From positions 1 to 40,992 of IMG/VR virus record IMGVR_UViG_3300020474_000040: a stretch of DNA of 40,992 nt; one strand, 5' to 3'. The notes beneath the pieces were generated by a model, which worked only from the letters and a program-made list of their open reading frames with translations, made no database searches and had not been told where the DNA came from. The translations under genes were made by a program, and so were the position numbers. Positions 4,032 through 40,992 of the stretch are shown here, piece by piece (position 1 is the stretch's first letter; every line of letters starts with the position of its first letter). The stretch is from a virus.

Positions 4032-4196
4032 ATGAATAGATTAACAAAACACATTGAAGAATGGATTAAAGATAAATCATACGAAGACTTAGTTAATGAG
4101 TTAGTAGACATGAAAATTAACGGGGAGAACACCCAAGAAAATAAACTTTGGATTCAAAAGATTCAACAACGATTATCTGAATTATCAAGTGACTAA
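4032..4196 (+). CDS. Hypothetical protein, 54 aa
   Basis: The ATG overlaps nothing but begins at the base after the previous stop, and the stop overlaps the GTG of the glycosyltransferase by eight bases. The product is an all-helical, lysine- and glutamate-rich peptide (MNRLTKHIEEWIKDKSYED). The tight coupling to the next gene supports translation. No function is recognised. Confidence 0.55.
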   Translation: MNRLTKHIEEWIKDKSYEDLVNELVDMKINGENTQENKLWIQKIQQRLSELSSD

Positions 4197-5673
4197 ACAA
4201 ATCAATAAAATATTTGTACTATCCGTAAAAGGAAATTATAGTGAGATTGGAAGTCGGTTAGATGATTTGGACTTACCATATCAAGTATCGTATGAAGTCA
4301 TAGATGGTATCATAGGTAAAGAAACAGATATGGAGTATAATGAGTATCCATGGGCATTGACTGAAATGAATCCATGGAATGAATGGTGGGAACGTCCAAT
4401 GTTAGATGGTGAAGTTGGTTGTGCATTAGGTCACTATAATATGTGGAAACAAGCATACGATGAAGGACATGAAGTATGTATGTTTTTAGAAGAAGACTTT
4501 GAAGGTAAAAAATCTTTATCTGACCTCGGTATGATTCCCGATGATATAGATGGTTTATACTTGGGTAGAAGACGTGTACCCGACCACGAGTGGTTATATG
4601 ATAAACCTGAAGAAAAATATAATGACAATTGGGTGTATCCACAATATAGTTACAATGCTCACGCATACATATTGACACGAGAAGGATTAAGAAAACTATT
4701 ATATGATTATAATTTAATAGATAATCTAATGCCACTTGACGAGTTTTTGATATCAACAATAAATCTACATCCACGACAAGACATCAGAGAATTTGTTAAA
4801 CCAACATTAAACTTTATTGCACCACCAACAGACGATGATAATTGGATAGCACAAACATCTATGGATATTGAATCGGGTAATGAGTATGGTACTTCACTGA
4901 CTGAGGATATAACACGATTAGAACGAAGTATTAAGTTTGATATGGTTTATGTTATCACGTTAGATAGAAGTAACGAGAACGTAGAAAGATTAACAAACAA
5001 GGTAAAAGAATTAGGTTTACCAAACGATGTTCCAATAAGAATGTGGAGAGGTACAAATGGTAAGGAAGAGTTTGATACGATTGAAAAGAGAGAACAAATG
5101 GGTATCAAGTTCTATGATGGGTGGAAGGTAGATAGTGAAAACAATTGGTGGACAAGACCTGTAACTGTTGGTGAAGCAGGTGGTGTACATTCTCATATTA
5201 GAATATGGGAAGACGTAGTTGAAAGAGAATATAATAACGTATTAATATTAGAAGATGATTTTAATCCAAAACAAAAGTTTCATTGGAACACTTTTGATGA
5301 ATTAAAAGATTATGATTGGGATTTAATATTTCTGTCAAGATTATTAATTAAGGGTAAAGATACAAACGTGGGGTTAGATAATTGGGTCAAACCAAGTTAT
5401 TCATATCAAACTCATTGTTATGTTTTAAACTATGAAGGAGCAAAAAAGTTAGTAGAAACAAATGTACCAACACTAAAACAAAACATAATAGTATCAGATG
5501 AGTTTTTACCTGCTACATATACAACCCACCCAAGAGAAGATATTAGAAAAATGTTTATTCAAAATATGAATGTATTAGCGTTTAAATCAAATCCTGTTTT
5601 ACAAGACAGGTATGAGGCAGCTAATAATTCACAAACTTCCCCAATAGAGGGAATAGATTTTAATCAATTTTAA
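4189..5673 (+). CDS. Glycosyltransferase family 25-like protein with two tandem copies of the domain
   Basis: Family 25 enzymes transfer sugars during surface polysaccharide synthesis. This 494-residue protein holds two copies. Each copy starts with a strand that opens the fold (INKIFVLSVKGN at 5-16; FDMVYVITLDRS at 250-261), then WWxRP...GExG....H...W (69-86 and 320-340), then a metal-binding LEED/LEDD (100-103; 354-357), SYxxHxYxLxxEGxxKL (from about 154 and 399), and DEFL...HPRxDIR near each end. The start is a GTG overlapping the previous gene. One copy may be catalytic and the other supportive, or both may be active. Likely roles are modifying the host surface, or glycosylating phage proteins or DNA; the sequence does not decide. 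Confidence 0.85.
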   Translation: MTKQINKIFVLSVKGNYSEIGSRLDDLDLPYQVSYEVIDGIIGKETDMEYNEYPWALTEMNPWNEWWERPMLDGEVGCALGHYNMWKQAYDEGHEVCMFLEEDFEGKKSLSDLGMIPDDIDGLYLGRRRVPDHEWLYDKPEEKYNDNWVYPQYSYNAHAYILTREGLRKLLYDYNLIDNLMPLDEFLISTINLHPRQDIREFVKPTLNFIAPPTDDDNWIAQTSMDIESGNEYGTSLTEDITRLERSIKFDMVYVITLDRSNENVERLTNKVKELGLPNDVPIRMWRGTNGKEEFDTIEKREQMGIKFYDGWKVDSENNWWTRPVTVGEAGGVHSHIRIWEDVVEREYNNVLILEDDFNPKQKFHWNTFDELKDYDWDLIFLSRLLIKGKDTNVGLDNWVKPSYSYQTHCYVLNYEGAKKLVETNVPTLKQNIIVSDEFLPATYTTHPREDIRKMFIQNMNVLAFKSNPVLQDRYEAANNSQTSPIEGIDFNQF

Positions 5674-6299: not shown

Positions 6300-6373
6300 G
6301 GGGATATAGCTCAGATGGCTAGAGCACTACACTTGCACTGTAGGGGTCGTGAGTTCGAGTCTCACTATCTCCA
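6300..6373 (+). tRNA. tRNA-Ala, anticodon UGC
   Basis: A full cloverleaf can be drawn. The acceptor GGGGATA pairs with TATCTCC (one G-T pair), the D stem is GCTC/GAGC, the anticodon stem CTACA/TGTAG encloses loop CTTGCAC with anticodon TGC at 6334-6336, and the T arm is GTGAG-TTCGAGT-CTCAC. The discriminator is A at 6373 and no CCA is encoded. It reads GCA, a codon favoured by this AT-rich genome. Confidence 0.95.
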
Positions 6374-6379
6374 CATCAT

Positions 6380-6451
6380 GCTCGGTTCGTCTAACGGTTA
6401 GGACTTCAGGTTTTCATCCTGGCAATAGGGGTTCGATTCCCCTACCGAGTA
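6380..6451 (+). tRNA. tRNA-Glu, anticodon UUC
   Basis: The acceptor GCTCGGT pairs with ACCGAGT (terminal G-T). The D stem is GTCT/GGAC. The anticodon stem TCAGG/CCTGG encloses TTTTCAT with anticodon TTC, and the T arm is AGGGG-TTCGATT-CCCCT. CCA is not encoded. It lies six bases after tRNA-Ala, so the pair is probably cut from one transcript. It reads GAA, another very common codon here. Confidence 0.95.
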
Positions 6452-6462
6452 CAAAAAAAGTT

Positions 6463-11752: not shown

Positions 11753-11785
11753 ATGAGAAATAATAATTTAAAACAAAGTCTATGA
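11753..11785 (+). CDS. Possible 10-codon upstream ORF before the AAA ATPase
   Basis: The first ATG of the predicted leader opens MRNNNLKQSL and stops at a TGA that overlaps the ATPase start codon (ATGA at 11782-11785). Such coupling could help ribosomes reach the main start in a message lacking a Shine-Dalgarno sequence. It is too short to prove as a translated peptide. Confidence 0.3.
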   Translation: MRNNNLKQSL

Positions 11786-13044
11786 AAGCACAAAAATCAG
11801 TTTTTGGAAAAGTAGTTCAGATAGATGACCTCTATTTGTTCGAGGATTCGGCAGGTGTTAAGTTTAACATCCCCGAGTTCAATGAAGAGGGTACCAACCT
11901 CTATAAAAGGGTAAAGTCAGCGTGTAACAATCCTTCTAAGTGGGGTTTCAAAATCAGAGTAAGAGGTAGACTCTCTGATGGTGAGATTGTTTACAATAGG
12001 GTTCCTGCTTCAACGGTTGAAAAGAAACCTCAACCTGTTGGTAACTTCAACAAACCTAATGGTGGGTTGATGTCTATGTTATGGGAACCAACACCAAAGG
12101 GTGTCGCATCTAAAGAAATGACTGACGATGTTCTGAACTTTATCCATAAAGAAGTTGATGGTCTAAAACCAAAAATGTTATTTATGAAATCTCTAAAGTG
12201 GAAGTATCTAATCAGAAACATCCTTAGAGGTAAAAATATTATGATGACAGGTCCTGCTGGTTGTGGTAAAACTATGGCAGCAAAAGCAGCGGCAAATTCC
12301 CTTGAAGGTTACAACACCTTTATTATCAACTTGGGTGCAACACAAGACCCAAGAACTACCCTTATCGGAAACACTCAGTTCGATACTAAGAAGGGTACAG
12401 TGTTCAACTCTTCACCATTTGTGAAAGCAATCCAAACTCCTAACACCGTGGTGGTCCTTGATGAGTTGACGAGAGCACACCCTGAGGCTCACAACATCCT
12501 AATGACAGTTCTTGACCAAGGTCAGAGATACTTGAGAATGGATGAAGCCGCTGACGCTCCTGTTATCAAAGTCGCAGACGGTGTATCATTTATCGCATCT
12601 GCAAACATCGGTAATGAATATACCGCGACGAGAGCTCTTGATAGAGCAATCCTTGACAGATTTACCGTGATTGAAATGGACACCTTAACTAAGGAAGAAG
12701 AGTCTGAGTTACTTCAGATGATGTATCCTTCAGTTGACAAGACCGTTATTGATAGTGTCGCTGAGATTACTTCAATGACAAGAAGTGATGTGATGTCTGA
12801 CAGTCCTAAATTAACCAACTCTCTTTCAACGAGAACAGCAGTTGAGATTGGTTCTCTATTGTATGATGGTTTCAATTTAGGTGAAGCTGCAGAAATTACA
12901 ATCTACCCAATGTTCGACCAAAGTGGTGGTGCTCAATCTGAGAGAGTCTTCTTGAAACAATACATTCAGAAGTTCTTAGGTGACACTCCAAAAGATGAAG
13001 ATTTGTTTAACGTAGAAGCAGATGATGTTAGTAATCCTTGGTAA
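11782..13044 (+). CDS. MoxR/CobS-type AAA+ ATPase
   Basis: A 420-residue ATPase with an N-terminal region of about 110 residues (beta-rich) followed by the AAA+ core. Walker A is GPAGCGKT at 157-164, Walker B VVVLDE at 223-228, sensor 1 lies in FIASANIG at 270-277, and an arginine-finger region is in ALDRAILDRF at 285-294. MoxR and CobS proteins work with a vWA partner to insert metals or remodel proteins; the partner here is the preceding gene. T4-like phages of marine bacteria often carry a CobS-like gene, usually without the rest of cobalamin synthesis. It is transcribed from its own class A promoter. Confidence 0.92.
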   Translation: MKAQKSVFGKVVQIDDLYLFEDSAGVKFNIPEFNEEGTNLYKRVKSACNNPSKWGFKIRVRGRLSDGEIVYNRVPASTVEKKPQPVGNFNKPNGGLMSMLWEPTPKGVASKEMTDDVLNFIHKEVDGLKPKMLFMKSLKWKYLIRNILRGKNIMMTGPAGCGKTMAAKAAANSLEGYNTFIINLGATQDPRTTLIGNTQFDTKKGTVFNSSPFVKAIQTPNTVVVLDELTRAHPEAHNILMTVLDQGQRYLRMDEAADAPVIKVADGVSFIASANIGNEYTATRALDRAILDRFTVIEMDTLTKEEESELLQMMYPSVDKTVIDSVAEITSMTRSDVMSDSPKLTNSLSTRTAVEIGSLLYDGFNLGEAAEITIYPMFDQSGGAQSERVFLKQYIQKFLGDTPKDEDLFNVEADDVSNPW

Positions 13045-29385: not shown

Positions 29386-29967
29386 ATGTTTGAGTTTACG
29401 ATAGGGAATATAAAAACCTTCACACCTTGGGAACAACCAAGATTTGATACGTTCAGGGGTTGGTGGAATAGATTCAATAGAGATGTTGACTTATCAGATT
29501 ATAGAGTTTACTTAGTTGGTTCATTCGCAGAAAACATTTATGGAGCGAACATTCCGACCATGGATGTAGATATCGTACTTAGAAATAAAGTAAAAGATTA
29601 TAGAAAATTAAAACATATTTTAGATACCGCAATGATAATGGGTTTTGAATCTAAAATGTTTATAGATATAAAATGGGTTTGTGAAACTGTTTGGACTGAA
29701 CATCTTGGTCTTAGAAAAAAATGTCAAAGACCTTCTAAGTTAAGTGATTTTACAAGAATTAAAAATCACAACTATAGTATTAAGACAGTTAATGGTCAAA
29801 CTTTAGAAAAAAAGTTTTTACCTAAAACGGTAAATTGTAAAGAACTTATAGATGGTTTATATGAAGTAAAAGGATACGATTATATGACAACATCTAAAGT
29901 AAATAAACGTATGAGAGAAAAAACTTATACAGGAAAATATTTGGACTTGAAGAATGCCTTTAAATAG
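29386..29967 (+). CDS. Nucleotidyltransferase-fold protein within the tail module
   Basis: The pol-beta-type fold is suggested by VYLVGSFAENIYG at 41-53 (GS at 45-46) and TMDVDIVL at 58-65, giving the GSx(n)DxD metal-binding pattern (D60, D62). A second acidic strand lies in MFIDIKW (near 96-102). It is 193 residues with a basic C-terminal half. Enzymes of this fold add nucleotides to RNA, proteins or small molecules. It lies between structural genes and overlaps the next by 14 bases, so it is expressed late. The target is unknown. Confidence 0.72.
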   Translation: MFEFTIGNIKTFTPWEQPRFDTFRGWWNRFNRDVDLSDYRVYLVGSFAENIYGANIPTMDVDIVLRNKVKDYRKLKHILDTAMIMGFESKMFIDIKWVCETVWTEHLGLRKKCQRPSKLSDFTRIKNHNYSIKTVNGQTLEKKFLPKTVNCKELIDGLYEVKGYDYMTTSKVNKRMREKTYTGKYLDLKNAFK

Positions 29968-32900
29968 ATTTACAAATATAGACGAAGTACAAAGTAAACA
30001 ACCTGTTTTTGGTGAAGTGTTTACACCCGAAGACGCTGCTCTAATCGGTGAAGGAGCACAATATCCTATATTAGAGTCTGAAGATATCACGGGTATTCCA
30101 ACAATTTCAGCACCAAATATGGAAGTTCACTACTATAGTCCACAAGGAGTGTACTTAAATGGTAGATATAACTTACCACTTACTACTGTTGGTGATGAGG
30201 GTAGTAAAACATTATTTGTAAGGCCAGAACAAGATTTAAGAGATGGTGGTTATGTAACTGGCACATATAAATTAGTTTACAACTTTTTCCATCAAATAGC
30301 AGCAGGGGTAACAATAACAGAAATATCACCAAGTAGAAAAGAAGTTAAAATTAAATCAGTAACAGCAAATGGGTTATCTAAATTTTACAACATATACCAA
30401 AGACCAAACGGACTTGTAGGAAACACATTTTCAGGTGATGATACATACTTACCGGCGCATTTAAATTTTGGTAATAATAGTACATTCCCAATCCTTAGTG
30501 CAGCGTTTTATGGAAATGTTGGTGGAGCATATACTGCACGACTACCATTTCCTGTAGGTGATACTACTGTAAATGACCCAACAAGAAATACTGTATTTGT
30601 ACCTGCAAGTAACATTGCACAATTAGCATTAGAAGACCAACCATTTGGAGTAAATAACAGGTCAGACTACGTTACATTTGTAGAAATAGACTTAAATGAC
30701 GCAAGAGCAAGAGGACTATCTACATTTTACAAATATAGAGCTACAGGTATTTTTGAACAATTCAGACTTAGAAAAAACCAAGATAGTAGTTTAACTTGGG
30801 AAAGAAAAGGTGAAGTATATACTGACCCTGACCAACTTCCTGCTGATGTTACTGACCAAAATTTAAGAAATGTATTAGACCCTGACCCAAATTCGCCTGG
30901 AACATATGTAGGAATTTCACCAATTATTAATATTACACAACAACAAGCACTGAGTGTTGCTTATCAAGCAGTTGACTTAAACTTAAATAGTGTAAATGAA
31001 GTAATTGTAAAACTAAGTAAAGAATTACCATCAAGTGTTGTTGTTGGTGACGGACTTGATATATCACTACAGTTACATAAATCATATATAGATAATGTAA
31101 TAGCATACGATGCGATTGAAGATGGAAGTGTAGTTCCATTCTTTTCAAATCCAAACTTTAATATTGATTTAGGTGATAACAAAGGAGCATCGGGTGAGTT
31201 TGAATCATGGTCATCTTTATTAGACGCAGGTTTACCAACAAGACAACAGATTGTAGACAAGTTCTTTAGTGGTTCACTTGGAAATGTAAAATTAAATATA
31301 GATTATTCTGACTTTCAAAACTTCATCAACTTCTCATCAGCAGAAGAAAGAGTTAGAAACTTTAAATATAAACTACAACTTGTAGAAGGATATAATTCAA
31401 GAATCACAACTCTAACAGGAGTAAGTGGTTCTGAAGCAATAACAAACATTTCATCTTCAACAAGTAGAAGAGACGCGTTAATTGGTGGATTTGACGACTT
31501 TGAATATTGGTTATATTACAATCATGATTCATCATTATATACACACTTTAGTTCGTCTGAATATAGAATAGACCCGTATCCAAAAGAATTAAAAAATCCA
31601 CATACATTATATGATTTAACATCATCACAAGGTACAAGTTGGTTTAACACTACAGTAGAAACAGCAAAATCATATGACGCATTTAATGATACTAAGTTAA
31701 CTGAAATGATTCCTGCTAACTTAGCGTTTGACGAAAGAAATACGGAGTACATTGACTTTGTAAAAATGTTAGGTCAACACTTTGATATATTCTACAACTA
31801 CATACAAGAGATTACACAAATCAATGACAGAGAAGAACATCCTAAAGACGGTATGGCTCAAGACTTGATAGAAATCATTGCAAACTCTTTTGGTTGGAAA
31901 CTGTTTAATGGATACTCTGATGTATCGTTGTGGAAGTATGAATTCGGAGTTGACCAATCAGGTAATCCAATACAATCAGGTTCTCTATATTCTAAACCAA
32001 CAAAAGAAATTGTTTACGAAACTTGGAGACGATTGTTAAACAATGTGCCAGGAATATACAAAAGTAAAGGTACAGCACGTTCATTTAAAACACTGATATC
32101 TTCATACGGTATTCCAAGTGCGTTCCTAAAGATTAGAGAGTATGGTGGTCCAAGAATAAAAGATACTAAAGAAGTATATGAACACGAAAGATATATCTAT
32201 AAACTACAATTAGATGGATTAACAAATTCAGAAAACCCGTGGGATGTCATTAATGATAGTAGACCTAAGACAATTGAAATAATCGCAAAACTACCACAGG
32301 GTAATCATACAATCATGAGACATGCTACAGGAAATGTCTATGATTTAAAATGGGAGTACAATCAATCAACAGGAAAAGCAAGATGGGTTGTCAGATACAA
32401 TAATACCTCAGATGTAGCAACAACACCATTCGTTCATTACAAACAACAAAGAAATGTTGTAGTCGCAATATCATCAGGTTCAGATGGGTATCAACTTAAT
32501 TCAGCATGGATTGATGATTGGGGTAACATATTAGCAAACCCAACTGCGTCTTGGACAACAAATACAATAGACAACGTTTGGTCAGGTAATAACAACGATG
32601 GTGTATTAGTACCATTTGTTAATTCAGTAGGTAATACTACATCAAGTATTCAAGAAATAAGATATTACAAAAAAGTATTATCGAATGAAGTAATACAGGG
32701 TCACGCAGCAAATACAGACGCATACTATTCTGATGATAACACATCAGACTTAGACATTGACACTTCATACGACAATGTTCTTTATAGAATATTCCCTGAT
32801 AGTACATATAACACTAACAGTGGTTCTATAGTATCAAGACATCCTAACCAAAAGTTTACAGCATCAGCAGCAGGTCATTATTTATCCGCCTCTTTTGATA

Positions 32901-34483
32901 GTTCAAGAGCAGACGCAGGAAGACTATCAGGTGAAGTAGATACTCAGTTTGTAAGTATTCCATCCGTTGGAGCACTAAACTTAACTAACAAAAAAGTAAG
33001 AATAGAATCCTCATCTTTAAGAGGACCACTACAATTTGATGTCAGTAATGAAAAAAGTCAATATGATGAAGCTCCTCTTGATTCAAATCTATTAGGAACG
33101 TATTTTTCAACAACAGATACAATCAACTTTGATATTTACGCTTCTGAAGGATATTTTAGTGGAGATGATTTAATAGGTGACACTGATGTTAGAAATAATG
33201 ATGGATATGACTTATTAGATTTTAGAGCAAGAAATTACTTCCAAAAGTACACTTCAAGAACAGCACTTCAGATTCAGTTAGATATGTTATCAAGATACGA
33301 TATGTCTATCTTTGATTCTATGAAACAAATTGTTCCCGCAAGATGTGATTGGCATAAAGGTATTTTAATTGAACCACATATATTTGAAAGAAATAATTAT
33401 CTAAGACCACAAGGTATATCCTTTACACAAAATCAATATGATAACGAAGATTCACCAATAGGTATAGTAAGTCTTATATCAGGGTCGTATCTAACATATA
33501 CAAGTAGTATAAGTAAAGATGTGTTTAAACCATCTATATACAAATATACTGATATACTTAGATTAAGTTCTTCAGGAGAATATTTTACAGATACAAATCC
33601 ATATTGGGAATATTCACCGACAGGGTCAGTGATATTAAACGCAAGACTTTCAAGAACAGCATTAGAACCAAAATATTTTTATAGTAATGCTATAAGTGCA
33701 TCATTAGGACCCGAGTTCTCAAATTCAGCATCATTCCATTTTGCAAGAGTTCAAGATGATAGATTGACAGGTAACTTAAATAATTTATTTTATGAAGGGT
33801 GTAAAATATCAAGTACATCTTTAACAGCCAAATCGACTGATACACCTGACAATAGTCCTGTAATAGAAGTCACTACTGTTGATAGTAAAGAAATAGTAGT
33901 AAGTACTACAAAAGAAACAAATATTGTAGACACAATAGGTAAAGAAAAAGTAATAGGTATAATTCCATCTGAAGATTTATTAGCAGTTAGTAATCATATT
34001 TCAAGAAAAGAACAAGCAAATAAATCACAATGGAATTTAAAAGATATAGTAACGGAATGGGATATATTTAAAAATCCACCAGCGTTACCTAAACCACCTA
34101 AGAAAATAGCAAGACCTACAGCTAAAATAGCAGGTGGTGATAAAAAAATATCATTTAGTTTTATACCAACAGTAGGAAACACAAGAAAAAATGTTACATT
34201 AAATGTTGACGCAGCAAACAAAGCAGTTGACAATGTAGCCAGAAAACAATTAAAAAGACAATATAGAAATGGTGGGTTAAGTGCGGATTATAGACCGCCA
34301 ACTTCACCAACTTCTACAAAAACAAATGTATCTAATGTTAGATACGGTTTTGGACAAAATCCACCCGTGACTAATACGTCAACTTTTGGTGCAGCAAATA
34401 CATCTAAGGGAGCAACAGAAGATGTAAATAAGAACAGAAGAAGACGAGGACGAGGGGGAGTTTATTCGAGTAGAGGTGGATAA
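29954..34483 (+). CDS. Very large tail/baseplate protein with LamG-like domain, 1509 aa
   Basis: The largest gene in the window. It has a beta-rich N-terminal half, then a region with TWRRLLNNVPGIYKSKGT and FKTLISSYGIPSAFLKI (about 695-735), a pattern I associate with large tail proteins of marine T4-like phages. A concanavalin-like (LamG) domain follows at about 775-925 (KTIEIIAKLPQGNHTIMR to SIQEIRYYKKVLSNEVI). Further beta structure follows, then a basic, low-complexity tail (NRRRRGRGGVYSSRGG). It is probably a baseplate-linked protein, perhaps carrying the fibres. The start overlaps the previous gene by 14 bases. Confidence 0.72.
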   Translation: MPLNRFTNIDEVQSKQPVFGEVFTPEDAALIGEGAQYPILESEDITGIPTISAPNMEVHYYSPQGVYLNGRYNLPLTTVGDEGSKTLFVRPEQDLRDGGYVTGTYKLVYNFFHQIAAGVTITEISPSRKEVKIKSVTANGLSKFYNIYQRPNGLVGNTFSGDDTYLPAHLNFGNNSTFPILSAAFYGNVGGAYTARLPFPVGDTTVNDPTRNTVFVPASNIAQLALEDQPFGVNNRSDYVTFVEIDLNDARARGLSTFYKYRATGIFEQFRLRKNQDSSLTWERKGEVYTDPDQLPADVTDQNLRNVLDPDPNSPGTYVGISPIINITQQQALSVAYQAVDLNLNSVNEVIVKLSKELPSSVVVGDGLDISLQLHKSYIDNVIAYDAIEDGSVVPFFSNPNFNIDLGDNKGASGEFESWSSLLDAGLPTRQQIVDKFFSGSLGNVKLNIDYSDFQNFINFSSAEERVRNFKYKLQLVEGYNSRITTLTGVSGSEAITNISSSTSRRDALIGGFDDFEYWLYYNHDSSLYTHFSSSEYRIDPYPKELKNPHTLYDLTSSQGTSWFNTTVETAKSYDAFNDTKLTEMIPANLAFDERNTEYIDFVKMLGQHFDIFYNYIQEITQINDREEHPKDGMAQDLIEIIANSFGWKLFNGYSDVSLWKYEFGVDQSGNPIQSGSLYSKPTKEIVYETWRRLLNNVPGIYKSKGTARSFKTLISSYGIPSAFLKIREYGGPRIKDTKEVYEHERYIYKLQLDGLTNSENPWDVINDSRPKTIEIIAKLPQGNHTIMRHATGNVYDLKWEYNQSTGKARWVVRYNNTSDVATTPFVHYKQQRNVVVAISSGSDGYQLNSAWIDDWGNILANPTASWTTNTIDNVWSGNNNDGVLVPFVNSVGNTTSSIQEIRYYKKVLSNEVIQGHAANTDAYYSDDNTSDLDIDTSYDNVLYRIFPDSTYNTNSGSIVSRHPNQKFTASAAGHYLSASFDSSRADAGRLSGEVDTQFVSIPSVGALNLTNKKVRIESSSLRGPLQFDVSNEKSQYDEAPLDSNLLGTYFSTTDTINFDIYASEGYFSGDDLIGDTDVRNNDGYDLLDFRARNYFQKYTSRTALQIQLDMLSRYDMSIFDSMKQIVPARCDWHKGILIEPHIFERNNYLRPQGISFTQNQYDNEDSPIGIVSLISGSYLTYTSSISKDVFKPSIYKYTDILRLSSSGEYFTDTNPYWEYSPTGSVILNARLSRTALEPKYFYSNAISASLGPEFSNSASFHFARVQDDRLTGNLNNLFYEGCKISSTSLTAKSTDTPDNSPVIEVTTVDSKEIVVSTTKETNIVDTIGKEKVIGIIPSEDLLAVSNHISRKEQANKSQWNLKDIVTEWDIFKNPPALPKPPKKIARPTAKIAGGDKKISFSFIPTVGNTRKNVTLNVDAANKAVDNVARKQLKRQYRNGGLSADYRPPTSPTSTKTNVSNVRYGFGQNPPVTNTSTFGAANTSKGATEDVNKNRRRRGRGGVYSSRGG

Positions 34484-36552: not shown

Positions 36553-38283
36553 ATGGCCAAAGTATTCAAAAGGATATTCAATCAGGGAATAACCAAACGT
36601 CCCTACAAAGCTCATAAAAGATATGAGGTAACTGATACGAATTATTCGTCATCATTCGGAATATCTACATTTAGAGCAATATCCCCATTTAATACTAAGA
36701 TTGAAGTTTCCAAATCTAAACATCAAGGTGTTGAATACGACACTACGACCCTAACGGGTTCAGGTGCAATATCAACAGAGTTAAATAAGATTCCACAAAA
36801 AATTGTATGGAGTAGTATTAAACAATCATGTTTTAAAGATTATGGTCACATGAAACTATATGCAACCGCATCGGTAGTTTCAATACCTCAACTTAAGTAT
36901 GGATTGGGAATCAAACCTGAATCAGTAACTATTTCAGATTTTTCAAGACTTGCAGGTTCTGCGTCATTACATTTAAGTGAATCTAAATATGACAACAGTC
37001 ACGGTCATTTATATGATACCGCAATAGACCATACTAAATTTGTTGATAAAAGATTCTTAAAATTCTATTTAGGATTTAATTTACTCGAACCAAATACAAT
37101 CTATAAAATTCAAAAAGATGAAGGTCCGTTTGGTAATAATCTTGAATGTAAAAATGTAACAATAGTTAATGGAATAACTACAACAGGTGAAGTATCATCA
37201 AGTGGTTATGGTGCATTTTTACAAACATCATCTTCTTTATATGTACCTGCAGCAGGTAGTAATACTGACTTTTTTAACTCATTTGAAAATTGGTCAATAT
37301 CAGCATGGGTTAAACTACCACCAAGTCAGTCTATGTTAGAATCAAATAGAAATATAATATTAGCAAAAGCGGGTCAAGAGTATAATCCATATCTTGATTA
37401 CAATCCTATGGTGAGACAGTCTTCAGACTCGTTTGGGTCAACAATAGTAACCGAACCAGCATCATTCCCATTTAAAGTAAGTGTATTCAACCAATCGGCA
37501 GGACAACAGTTGAGTGGTAAATTACAATTCCAATTTTTTGATGGAAGAGAAAATAAGATAAGTTCACTTACAGTAACCTCATCGGCGGTTAATGACAATC
37601 AGTGGCATAATATTATTGTAAATCACACAGGTGGTCAAAATGGTGGAACCATGAAATTCTATGTTGATGGAGTTCAACTCGATGACTTTGGTGCTACTCA
37701 CGTTAGAAGACCAATCGGTAATGAACAAGATGTAATGATAATGTGTAAAAACGGAATGGGTGATACAGGTACAAGTGGTTCAATAGATGAAATTAGATTC
37801 TACAATACAAACCTTACAGCAAATAATATTTCATCATTGAGTAACAATCATGTAATTAGTGGTTCAGCATATCAAACGAGAGAATGTGGATATACATTTT
37901 ATGAAAAGGGATTAATAGTAATAACAGACCCACGACCAAAATATCAAAACTGTTTCTTAGGTGATGGTAATTTTAATTATGCACAAAAAGGTTTTGAGTT
38001 TACATTTAACTCTACTAAAAAAATAGAACAACAATCAATCCTATGTGAAATAGGAAGAGGTGAGTATAACGTCTCACAAAATAACACGTTAAGATTAACA
38101 GGTGACGACAGTGGTCATGTACTAAGAGATTTTGTTACAGGGTCAGACTTCAGACCTTACATAACATCAATTGGTCTTTACAATGACAATGGTGAATTAC
38201 TTGCAATTGGTAAGTTAGGTTCACCAATGAAGAAAAGACAGGATGTTGATGTAACAGTTGATGTTAGATTAGATTTTGAATAA
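36553..38283 (+). CDS. Tail structural protein with LamG domain and shared C-terminus, 576 aa
   Basis: The N-terminal 200 residues are a beta domain. A LamG/concanavalin-like unit follows at about 235-430 (ENWSISAWVKLPPSQ, GGTMKFYVDGVQLDDFG, then SGSIDEIRFYNTNLTANNIS), a fold that binds sugars. The C-terminal 45 residues (PYITSIGLYNDNGELLAIGK, then LGSP, ending VRLDFE) are paralogous to the end of the preceding protein. It is probably part of the host-recognition apparatus. Confidence 0.72.
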   Translation: MAKVFKRIFNQGITKRPYKAHKRYEVTDTNYSSSFGISTFRAISPFNTKIEVSKSKHQGVEYDTTTLTGSGAISTELNKIPQKIVWSSIKQSCFKDYGHMKLYATASVVSIPQLKYGLGIKPESVTISDFSRLAGSASLHLSESKYDNSHGHLYDTAIDHTKFVDKRFLKFYLGFNLLEPNTIYKIQKDEGPFGNNLECKNVTIVNGITTTGEVSSSGYGAFLQTSSSLYVPAAGSNTDFFNSFENWSISAWVKLPPSQSMLESNRNIILAKAGQEYNPYLDYNPMVRQSSDSFGSTIVTEPASFPFKVSVFNQSAGQQLSGKLQFQFFDGRENKISSLTVTSSAVNDNQWHNIIVNHTGGQNGGTMKFYVDGVQLDDFGATHVRRPIGNEQDVMIMCKNGMGDTGTSGSIDEIRFYNTNLTANNISSLSNNHVISGSAYQTRECGYTFYEKGLIVITDPRPKYQNCFLGDGNFNYAQKGFEFTFNSTKKIEQQSILCEIGRGEYNVSQNNTLRLTGDDSGHVLRDFVTGSDFRPYITSIGLYNDNGELLAIGKLGSPMKKRQDVDVTVDVRLDFE

Positions 38284-38287
38284 AGTT

Positions 38288-38722
38288 ATGAATAAAAAAG
38301 GAAATTGGTCCCACATCCAAAAAATGAAGGGACACAAAAGTGGGTTGGAAACTCGTATAGATGAACAACTCAAAGCACAAGGAATTGATGGTGAATATGA
38401 ACAATACGAAGTATCATACACAGTACCAGCAACACATCACACTTACAAACCTGATTTCAGATTACCAAACGGTATCTATATTGAATCAAAGGGTTGGTTT
38501 TTACCTGAAGACAGGAAGAAACATTTACTCATTAGAGAACAGAATCCTGACATGGATTTACGATTTGTTTTACAGTCCCCAAATGGTAAAATATATAAAG
38601 GTTCTAAAACTACTTACTCTCAATGGTGTGAGAAGAATGGTTTCAAATGGGCTAAAAAAGAAATACCCCAAGAATGGATTGATGAAAAAGAGAAGGAAAA
38701 TTTCTTTGATTTTTCAAAATAA
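38288..38722 (+). CDS. Phage endonuclease I (T7-type Holliday junction resolvase)
   Basis: Cuts branched DNA such as four-way junctions. The PD-(D/E)xK residues of T7 endonuclease I (E20, D55, E65, K67) are matched with the same spacing by E21, D56, E66 and K68, in SGLETRIDEQL, YKPDFRLPNG and IYIESKGWFLPEDRKKHL. At 144 residues it is close to the T7 protein (149). The start is the ATG at 38288; an in-frame TTG at 38276 is less likely. T4 itself uses an unrelated enzyme (gp49) for this job. A class B -33 box is in its last codons. Confidence 0.93.
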   Translation: MNKKGNWSHIQKMKGHKSGLETRIDEQLKAQGIDGEYEQYEVSYTVPATHHTYKPDFRLPNGIYIESKGWFLPEDRKKHLLIREQNPDMDLRFVLQSPNGKIYKGSKTTYSQWCEKNGFKWAKKEIPQEWIDEKEKENFFDFSK

Positions 38723-38751: not shown

Positions 38752-39684
38752 ATGGAAGATAGATTACTTGAATTATTGGAGTCTGTTCTTGGTAAATCCA
38801 AGAAAACATCGGGTGATAATTACGCATTTTATTCCCCGTTTGTAGACCATTACAAACCTAAATTAGAAGTAAATATTAGGATTACTTCTGATGGACAAAA
38901 TCCGTGGCATTGTTGGATATCGGATGAAAAGGGTAGAAGTATTAAGACTCTTTTTAAAAAACTCCGTGTATCTAAACAAACTTGGGACGAGTACAATAGT
39001 ATATTCAGTAGAATAAACCGTTATGTTCATTCTGATAATCAGATACAGGTAAATCAAGTAGAACTTCCAAAAGAATTTAAACCACTTTACAAAAAGTCAA
39101 ACTCATTTAAGTATAAACACGCTCTTAACTATTTGTTAAAACGTGGACTTAGACCTGAGGATATTGTGAAATATAATATAGGATATTGTGAAACAGGAGA
39201 ATATGAAGATAAAATTATTATACCATCTTATGACAGTGATGGAAAACTAAACTTTTTTGTTGGTAGGTCATTCTATCAATCAAAATATAAACACAAAAAT
39301 CCAAAGGTATCTAAAGACATTGTGGGGTTTGACCTTTTAGTGAATTGGGATATACCATTGGTTTTATGTGAAGGAGCATTTGACGCAATAGCAATACGAA
39401 GAAATGTAATACCACTATTTGGAAAATCAATACAATCTAAATTAGAACAGAAAATAATTGGAAATTCCGTAAAAAAGTTGTATATTGTATTAGATTCGGA
39501 TGCTATATCTAACGCAATAGGTCTGTCTAAAAAGTTTATGTCCTACGGGATTGAGACTCATTTAGTAGATTTAGGTGATGAAGACCCATCCGAAATGGGA
39601 TATGAACGTATAAACCAAAAAATTTATGATACACCACAACTTGATTTAAAAAAGTTGATGGAGTATCAACTATTTAACGTATGA
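38752..39684 (+). CDS. DNA primase with TOPRIM domain (gp61-like)
   Basis: Makes RNA primers for lagging-strand synthesis. The TOPRIM site is LVLCEGAFDAIAI at 203-215 (E207) with LYIVLDSDA at 243-251 (D248, D250). Residues 20-60 (AFYSPFVDHYKPKLEVNI, then WHCWISDEKG) occupy the place of the zinc-binding CHC2 domain but lack its cysteines except one. It is 310 residues; T4 gp61 is 342. The stop overlaps the next ATG by four bases. Confidence 0.88.
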   Translation: MEDRLLELLESVLGKSKKTSGDNYAFYSPFVDHYKPKLEVNIRITSDGQNPWHCWISDEKGRSIKTLFKKLRVSKQTWDEYNSIFSRINRYVHSDNQIQVNQVELPKEFKPLYKKSNSFKYKHALNYLLKRGLRPEDIVKYNIGYCETGEYEDKIIIPSYDSDGKLNFFVGRSFYQSKYKHKNPKVSKDIVGFDLLVNWDIPLVLCEGAFDAIAIRRNVIPLFGKSIQSKLEQKIIGNSVKKLYIVLDSDAISNAIGLSKKFMSYGIETHLVDLGDEDPSEMGYERINQKIYDTPQLDLKKLMEYQLFNV

Positions 39685-40992
39685 GAAGAATAAAGTATAT
39701 CGATGTCGGTGTGTCCGATATCGGAAAGATATATCACATCGCAGATGTGCATATAAGAAACCTTCAACGACATAAAGAATACCGTGAGGTATTTTCTAAT
39801 CTCTATGGATATATCTTATCCACAATGAGAGAAAATGACATAATTTATATCGCAGGTGATATCGTACACGCAAAAACTGATATGTCACCTGAGGTTGTTG
39901 ATTTAACTCAAGAATTTTTATGTAAGTTATCAGACTTACTACCAACTATTGTTATTCCTGGCAATCACGATGCAAATCTAAACAATACATCAAGATTAGA
40001 CGCTCTTAGTCCAATCATGAAAGCATTAGACCACCCAAACTTATACTACATAAAAGATACAAGTGCAGTTGGAATTGGTGGTTACACGTTTGTACATAAA
40101 TCAATATGGGATAAATCAGAAGGATTCCCACCTGCTACAGACTACAAGAAAAACAATGGACGAATTGCAATGTTACACGGTCCTGTTGATAACATTGAAA
40201 CTGAACACGGATTTGTAATACAGAATCAAAATGTAAAAGTATCACACTTTGAAAATTATGATTTAGTATTGTTAGGTGATATCCATAAACCAAACAATGA
40301 GGTGATGGGTAAATCACATATCAAATATTCTGGCTCATTGATAGTTCAAAATCACGGTGAAGCTAAATATCCTATTCACGGTATCTTAGTTTGGGATATG
40401 AAAAATCTAAAAAGTGAGTTTGTTCCTATACATAATGATTATGGATATGTGACTATTGACATTGAAAATGGTAAGATAGTATCTGACAATCATATGCCAA
40501 ATAAACCAAGAGTTAGGGTAAGAGTAAAAGATACTAAGACTTCACAACTTAATAGATTAATCGCAAAGATTAAGAAACAAGCAGATGTACAAGAACTAAC
40601 TGTACAAAAAGTACTTACTCGTAAAAGAGATATAGAACACCAATCAATAGTATTACAAAACGTAAGAGATACAGGTTTCCAAAATAAACTTATTGAAGAG
40701 TATTTAGAAGAAACAGAACATCTTACAAAAGAACAACTAAGTGTAGTTACCAATATCAATAAAGATATAAATGATAAACTTGGAAAACCAAATATTGTTG
40801 GTAACTCAACATGGATTCCAAAACGATTTGAGTTTTCTAATATGTTTTCATATGGAACTAACAATGTAATTGACTTTACAAATATGAAAGGTGCATATGG
40901 AATCTTCGCACCAAATGCAAGTGGTAAATCAACTCTATGGGACGCATTATCATTCTGTATGTTTGACAAGTGTTCAAGAACAATCAGAGCAG
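39681..40992 (+). CDS. Mre11-Rad50-like fusion: gp47 nuclease joined to the N-terminus of gp46 ATPase (3' truncated by window)
   Basis: In T4, gp47 (nuclease) and gp46 (ATPase) are separate proteins that together resect DNA ends for recombination. Here one open frame of 437 codons, with no stop, runs to the edge. Mre11-type motifs are IADVHIRN (D22, H24), AGD (D60), PGNHD at 93-97, MLHGPVD (H166) and LGDIH at 198-202. A helical linker follows at about 313-370. Then residues 382-437 have the start of gp46: KRFEFSNMFSYGTNNVIDFT, the Walker A GIFAPNASGKST at 407-418 and ALSFCMFDK. The rest of the ATPase, including the zinc hook and Walker B, lies outside the window. The start is the ATG that overlaps the primase stop. 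Confidence 0.92.
   Translation, partial: MRRIKYIDVGVSDIGKIYHIADVHIRNLQRHKEYREVFSNLYGYILSTMRENDIIYIAGDIVHAKTDMSPEVVDLTQEFLCKLSDLLPTIVIPGNHDANLNNTSRLDALSPIMKALDHPNLYYIKDTSAVGIGGYTFVHKSIWDKSEGFPPATDYKKNNGRIAMLHGPVDNIETEHGFVIQNQNVKVSHFENYDLVLLGDIHKPNNEVMGKSHIKYSGSLIVQNHGEAKYPIHGILVWDMKNLKSEFVPIHNDYGYVTIDIENGKIVSDNHMPNKPRVRVRVKDTKTSQLNRLIAKIKKQADVQELTVQKVLTRKRDIEHQSIVLQNVRDTGFQNKLIEEYLEETEHLTKEQLSVVTNINKDINDKLGKPNIVGNSTWIPKRFEFSNMFSYGTNNVIDFTNMKGAYGIFAPNASGKSTLWDALSFCMFDKCSRTIRA

Follow-up and report, generated by a model that had tools for sequence, protein, structure and literature searches.

In bacteriophage T4, the Mre11-like nuclease gp47 and the Rad50-like ATPase gp46 are the products of separate genes. 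At the end of the stretch of viral DNA analysed here (the window, 40,992 nucleotides), both proteins appear to be encoded by one gene, which raises the question of whether they are truly fused, how they are joined, and what a single-chain enzyme of this kind does for the phage. An earlier note on this DNA described gp47 and gp46 as joined in one stop-free frame from position 39681, and the ORF call, Pfam and PHROGs all agree with this description. The frame (39681 to 40991, plus strand) starts with ATG, contains no stop up to the window end and gives 437 amino acids, which are the first 437 of about 1056 codons, as the gene runs off the window. Pfam recognises a Metallophos domain (1.7e-12) and an AAA_23 domain (2.3e-8) in these residues, and the PHROGs families phrog_100 (SbcD-like, 5.2e-33) and phrog_77 (SbcC-like, 3.5e-8) both match.

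The Mre11/SbcD/gp47-type nuclease and its capping domain occupy residues 1-311 (39681 to 40613, plus strand), and their fold matches the structure 7dog_A (Z 24.2, 275 residues aligned, rmsd 3.6). The Rad50/SbcC/gp46-type ATPase starts at residue 377, and its first residues, 377-437, are encoded by 40809 to 40991 on the same strand and recognised by AAA_23. The motifs listed in the earlier note all proved to be correctly placed upon re-reading: DVH at residues 22-24, GD at 59-60, GNHD at 94-97, H166 and GDIH at 199-202 in the nuclease, and the Walker A motif GIFAPNASGKST at residues 407-418 (40899 to 40934, plus strand). The Walker A motif has an alanine in place of the first glycine of most P-loops. 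This form, APNxxGKS, is found in 18 of 18 T4-like fusions, and the split pairs differ.

The part of the protein that lies beyond the window end is supplied by a 98%-identical copy (L003) on a 180.8-kb contig, where the fusion is 1056 residues long. It carries the zinc hook CEHC at 728-731, the signature SGME at 967-970, the Walker B motif IAIDEGFGSLD and the H-loop ISH. Walker B, zinc hook and signature, which the earlier note had proposed to look for in frame past 40992, are thus all present in full-length relatives, together with the H-loop. The Rad50 part matches E. coli SbcC (7yzo_D; Z 28.9, 349 aligned, rmsd 3.1). The catalytic, hook, Walker A, Walker B and H-loop residues that were checked show no variation among 42 diverse relatives; these residues include D22, H24, D60, N95, H96, H166, D200 and H202 of the nuclease and, past the window end, the hook cysteines C728 and C731.

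The relatives were collected in several scans. A scan of viral contigs with the window protein gave 22 loci, of which six are 98% identical to it (L001-L005 and L013), nine 84-89% and six 43-45%; the one remaining locus is a short piece (L022). From a second scan with an alignment of eight proteins, the best 80 of 564 confirmed stretches were taken, two of them already in the first set. A further contig scan confirmed four loci: two contigs binned in MAGs (L106, and L107 with its 5' end cut) and two Pelosinus matches (L108 and L109, 32% identity over 78 residues), which were excluded. The set, including the best 80 of the 564 stretches, holds 102 loci and 93 distinct proteins: 100 loci on viral contigs, L002 and L028 being on the same contig, and the two MAG contigs. 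One of the latter (L106, CALBOT010000005.1) is an 11.4-kb contig from a Candidatus Nitrosopelagicus MAG, with a copy of the fusion at 47% identity; either this is phage DNA placed in the wrong bin, or it hints that the host is an archaeon.

The search for the same fusion in related phage genomes was successful. In the 102-locus set, which includes the best 80 of 564 stretches, a complete and uninterrupted fusion of 1046-1073 amino acids is found in 87 loci, and the junction is crossed in one frame in 101. In 13 loci the junction is in frame and the gene is cut by the contig end, L039 keeps the frame across the junction and loses it further on, within the coiled coil, and L022, with 57 amino acids, is too short for the junction to be judged. 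Five strict motif patterns are all present in 74 of the 88 frames scored as complete by a script; the remaining 14 comprise L048, L098, L101 and L102, which were scored in the wrong frame, L039, and nine that lack one or two patterns. In close copies that align without gaps (16, of which 15 are distinct), pN/pS amounts to 0.13 in the nuclease core, 0.14 in codons 330-367, 0.32 in codons 368-376 and 0.02 at the Rad50 start. The junction is therefore under purifying selection, which is less tight than in its flanks.

The segment between the two enzymes was taken by the earlier note for a linker of roughly 70 residues (about 313-380) that had replaced the Rad50-binding helices of Mre11. Structure prediction and alignment lead to a different description. 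AlphaFold2 was run on the full-length protein (pLDDT 80.3, pTM 0.46, so that the overall arrangement of this model is uncertain) and on residues 1-376 of the window protein (pLDDT 85.4, pTM 0.78). A poorly ordered loop (about 312-329) is followed by two helices, 331-345 and 350-366/367, and by a loop to residue 376; strand 1 of Rad50 begins at 377 and spans 377-386/388. In the MAFFT alignment the helix-loop-helix (residues 331-345 and 350-367; 40671 to 40781, plus strand) coincides with the C-terminus of T4 gp47. The gp47 profile aligns with the fusion from its start to these C-terminal helices: with hhalign against four gp47 proteins, residues 16-358 correspond to residues 2-328 of the 339 of T4 gp47 (probability 98, E 2e-13). 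VIA-align extends the match to residue 367 in E. coli SbcD from SbcCD (6s85_B, Z 22.4, 313 aligned, rmsd 6.5; 7yzo_B, Z 22.2, 307 aligned, rmsd 5.8), and a structural match to 3tho_B reaches residue 361 (Z 22.9, 298 aligned, rmsd 8.1). As hhalign stops at 358 and most other Mre11 rows in the structural comparison end near residue 313, the assignment of the second helix rests on MAFFT, the models and a few SbcD/Mre11 chains.

By these matches, the helix-loop-helix corresponds to the predicted Rad50-binding C-terminus of gp47/SbcD, which has been kept in the fusion. The nuclease is thus complete, with only about nine residues added, namely the joining segment 368-376 of the AlphaFold2 models (40782 to 40808, plus strand), in which selection is at its weakest among the four regions compared. 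An exchange of the Rad50-binding helices for a new linker is rejected by MAFFT, AlphaFold2, hhalign and the structural matches alike.

Two other accounts of the gene product have to be weighed at this junction. A sequencing or assembly error could have joined two truly separate genes through a missed stop or frameshift. In favour of this, the window stops inside the gene, and the frame is broken in one relative (L039), though at a later site in its coiled coil. Such an error is scarcely conceivable. The 101 of 102 loci (best 80 of 564 included) that keep one frame across the junction come from many metagenomes, the isolate Microcystis phage Mel-JY01 has a single CDS of 1066 amino acids, and the junction codons show purifying selection; for the lineage, the independent contigs rule an artefact out. 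The fused protein might also be accompanied, or replaced, by separate parts, if an internal start or cleavage of the protein were to release a Rad50-like protein. ATG codons 388 and 402 are indeed present in 16 of 16 close copies. A Shine-Dalgarno motif is absent at both, which says little because the true start has none either. Codon 388, however, lies inside strand 1 of Rad50, in an invariant motif, so that its conservation is explained by the protein sequence, and in codons 329-387, which cover the place of the T4 gp46 start, no start codon is common to more than one of the 16 copies. A release of separate parts is thus improbable, and one uninterrupted chain is the preferred reading.

In two of its motifs, the fused nuclease differs from T4 gp47. 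At the position of GDIH, T4 gp47 has GHFH, so that a metal-binding histidine is replaced by aspartate in the window protein. GDIH is found in all 21 fused phage proteins of the alignment, and the gp47 proteins of T4, P-SSM2, Ochrobactrum phage OC and Pelagibacter phage Mosig have GHxH. The 18 T4-like fusions also have histidine in GDxxH (GDIVH), where the same four gp47 proteins have aspartate (GDxxD). Histidine in GDxxH is usual in archaeal and eukaryotic Mre11, which leaves only the aspartate of GDIH as distinctive. The aspartate also occurs outside fusions, with GDLH in Vibrio phage VCPH, whose pair is split; Yersinia phage YerA41 has GHIH. Judged from the sequences, the exchange of histidine for aspartate may give the nuclease a metal preference or an activity different from that of T4 gp47. 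The Mimivirus fusion R555 is described as having both changes, a histidine for the third aspartate and Asp242 in place of His206 of P. furiosus Mre11 (PMC3175470).

Directly upstream of the fusion lies a primase-like gene (38752 to 39684, plus strand; phrog_47, DNA primase, 4.7e-31), whose stop codon overlaps the start codon of the fusion by four bases (ATGA, 39681-39684). It is preceded by a T7 endonuclease I (gp3)-like gene (38276 to 38722, plus strand; PF05367, 1.8e-54; phrog_945). In the set that includes the best 80 of 564 stretches, 99 loci have 600 bases or more upstream of the fusion, and a primase-like ORF is present there in all 99. The four-base overlap occurs in 57 of the 101 loci that have a primase match, and of the 95 loci with 1600 bases or more, 82 have the T7-type endonuclease. 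In a T4-like phage, a gene of the T7 endonuclease I type perhaps fills the role of T4 gp49.

The carriers were surveyed in ten large records, consisting of nine IMG/VR contigs (112-181 kb, mostly partial) and Mel-JY01. The T4 major capsid family Gp23 is found in nine of the ten, Mel-JY01 included, and RecA/UvsX also in nine. It is from these large relatives, by their Gp23 sequences, that the carrier of the fusion is identified as a T4-like phage. The SbcC-like phrog_77 matches the fusion frame in all ten records and has only two additional matches, both weak (7.0e-6 and 1.8e-4) and both in Mel-JY01. PF13476 matched one gene in nine records; in the tenth it did not recover the known fusion. When T4 and P-SSM2 were run alongside, their separate genes were recovered. 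From these profile searches, the fusion would be the one credible SbcC-like gene found in these phages, that is, the gp46/gp47 equivalent which the searches recover. The SbcD-like phrog_100 matched nothing beyond the fusion in the ten records that would represent a separate second nuclease gene; as it matches the fusion itself in eight and misses it in two, a diverged second gene could be missed too.

Very probably, then, the product is a Mre11-Rad50 (SbcDC) nuclease-ATPase in a single chain, which replaces the separate gp47 and gp46 of T4 in end resection during recombination-dependent replication. A complete gp47/SbcD nuclease with its predicted Rad50-binding helix-loop-helix forms the N-terminal part; the Rad50 head starts about nine residues further on, and after it come a short coiled coil with the zinc hook and the remaining half of the head. 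A pair of such chains would make up the usual M2R2 head, in which each nuclease is tethered to an ATPase. Since the fusion retains the docking helices and has only a short tether, each nuclease would be expected to dock on its own chain and the cycle to be otherwise ordinary. ATP-gated trimming of DNA ends would then supply 3' single strands to UvsX, which drives recombination-dependent replication and repair, with the enzyme being co-expressed with the primase and, usually, with the T7-type junction nuclease. The one-to-one ratio of the partners that the earlier note expected follows from the fusion, which fixes equal amounts of nuclease and ATPase. Its further suggestion, that the opening of the complex could be changed, finds nothing here to show it, as separate Mre11-Rad50 complexes are already M2R2, and the fusion does not alter the current understanding of the mechanism of the complex.

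T4 gp46 and gp47 are regarded as the chief resection enzymes of that phage (PMC3016280), and by analogy the fused enzyme is likely to have the same role. The T4 record also has gp46 and gp47 needed for host-DNA degradation, which would suit a specialised nuclease, acting for example in host-DNA breakdown or counter-defence instead of in recombination. The GDIH sequence in place of the T4 GHFH would suit it as well, and in most cells the fused version coexists with the normal pair, and the 2011 description of these fusions suggests that the fused one has a different role there (PMC3175470). In the present phages, however, the fusion appears to be the only credible SbcC-like gene found, the primase-like ORF stands beside it in 99 of 99 loci (of the set with the best 80 of 564), and RecA/UvsX accompanies it in nine of the ten large relatives. 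A specialised function is thus unlikely compared with the resection role.

Fusions of Mre11 and Rad50 are not new in kind, and the window gene is a solid, well-supported further example. Yoshida, Claverie and Ogata described in 2011 such fusions in Mimivirus R555 and twelve further sequences, the carriers including Bacillus phage 0305phi8-36, plasmids, bacteria and eukaryotes (PMC3175470). In that paper, R555-like genes are reported to be abundant on many marine metagenome scaffolds and enriched in viral fractions, the same scaffolds carry phage primases and T7-gp3-like endonucleases, the gap between nuclease and ATPase is estimated to be bridged by nine to twelve residues, and several fusion events as well as viral spread are inferred (PMC3175470). 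The earlier note had held that the two genes are separate in other T4-like phages; this stands for T4 and P-SSM2, but the fusion is not unprecedented, given the 2011 sequences (PMC3175470) and the single CDS of Mel-JY01 and of Tenacibaculum phages pT24 and PTm1. By its published description, R555 has in common with the window fusion the order and the join, with the helix-loop-helix region kept and a linker of the estimated length (9-12), as well as the marine viral setting, the primases and T7-gp3-like endonucleases on the scaffolds, and both the histidine in GDxxD and the aspartate for His206, here GDIVH and GDIH. R555 differs in its length of 1351 amino acids, with a longer coiled coil, the window fusion having about 1056 and being found in T4-like phages. 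Carriers of at least part of the R555-like marine genes of 2011 would accordingly be T4-like phages. Among viral proteins in BFVD, the top structure matches are giant-virus DNA-repair proteins, with one from Tupanvirus first (1379 aa, 25% identity).

A named relative is the protein of Mel-JY01 (WWT39521.1), which is 40% identical over the full length and has GDIVH and GDIH like the window fusion. A primase-like gene lies two genes upstream of it, with a small hypothetical gene in between, unlike the arrangement in the window. The product is labelled only 'AAA domain containing protein', and a literature search gave no paper naming Mel-JY01 among the matches listed. T4, P-SSM2, OC and Mosig have the same two proteins in the same order, but as separate genes, gp47 and gp46 being set apart by one or two small genes in T4, P-SSM2 and Mosig; identity to the split pairs is about 22% in the ATPase part. 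The metallo-phosphoesterases of pT24 and PTm1 and a protein of the huge phage LR756501 are single chains of 1202-1318 amino acids with the nuclease first and with GDIH. They are very diverged and form a separate long branch in the tree, and at 0.001 Pfam recognises the nuclease alone in pT24 and the ATPase side alone in PTm1. In this tree, which has no cellular or giant-virus rows, the 18 fused T4-like rows (17 loci and Mel-JY01) form one clade (100/99), the five split pairs group weakly (79/60), and long branches meet. It is possible, and we propose it only tentatively, that a large and mostly uncultured aquatic branch of T4-like phages replaced gp47/gp46 by a single-chain, aspartate-altered enzyme that shares an already fused ancestor with the giant-virus R555 fusions, and that the gene passed whole between viruses of prokaryotes and eukaryotes. 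A single-chain Mre11-Rad50 would be a handy tool for dissecting the control of the nuclease by the ATPase, and the shared change from histidine to aspartate is directly testable.

Two relatives have breaks of their own. On the 484-kb genome of an uncultured phage (LR756508.1; L026, 4001-8214), the gene is interrupted just after GDIHK by about 1 kb, which contains a 305-aa ORF ending in a TnsA-like nuclease domain (PF08722, 5.8e-6); the two parts of the divided gene are ORFs of 239 and 859 aa. At the gathering score the interruption has no Rfam intron match, and it looks like a mobile-endonuclease insertion. In YerA41 (L110, 2896-5933), the nuclease and the first ATPase half form one CDS of 827 amino acids, and the next, overlapping CDS (185 aa, annotated as DNA repair ATPase) seems to hold the second ATPase half, so that the break in the nuclease-ATPase chain seems to be differently placed.

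Elsewhere in the window, a 1509-aa ORF (29954-34483) and its neighbours up to 38283 have no PHROG match at 0.001, and a baseplate wedge gene lies upstream of them. A glucosyltransferase-like protein is encoded at 4189-5673 (phrog_2835, 4.8e-19), and 11782-13044 encodes an AAA+ protein that matches phrog_249 (3.7e-23), a CobS-like family labelled 'porphyrin biosynthesis'. Two tRNA genes, Ala(tgc) and Glu(ttc), lie six bases apart at 6300-6452.
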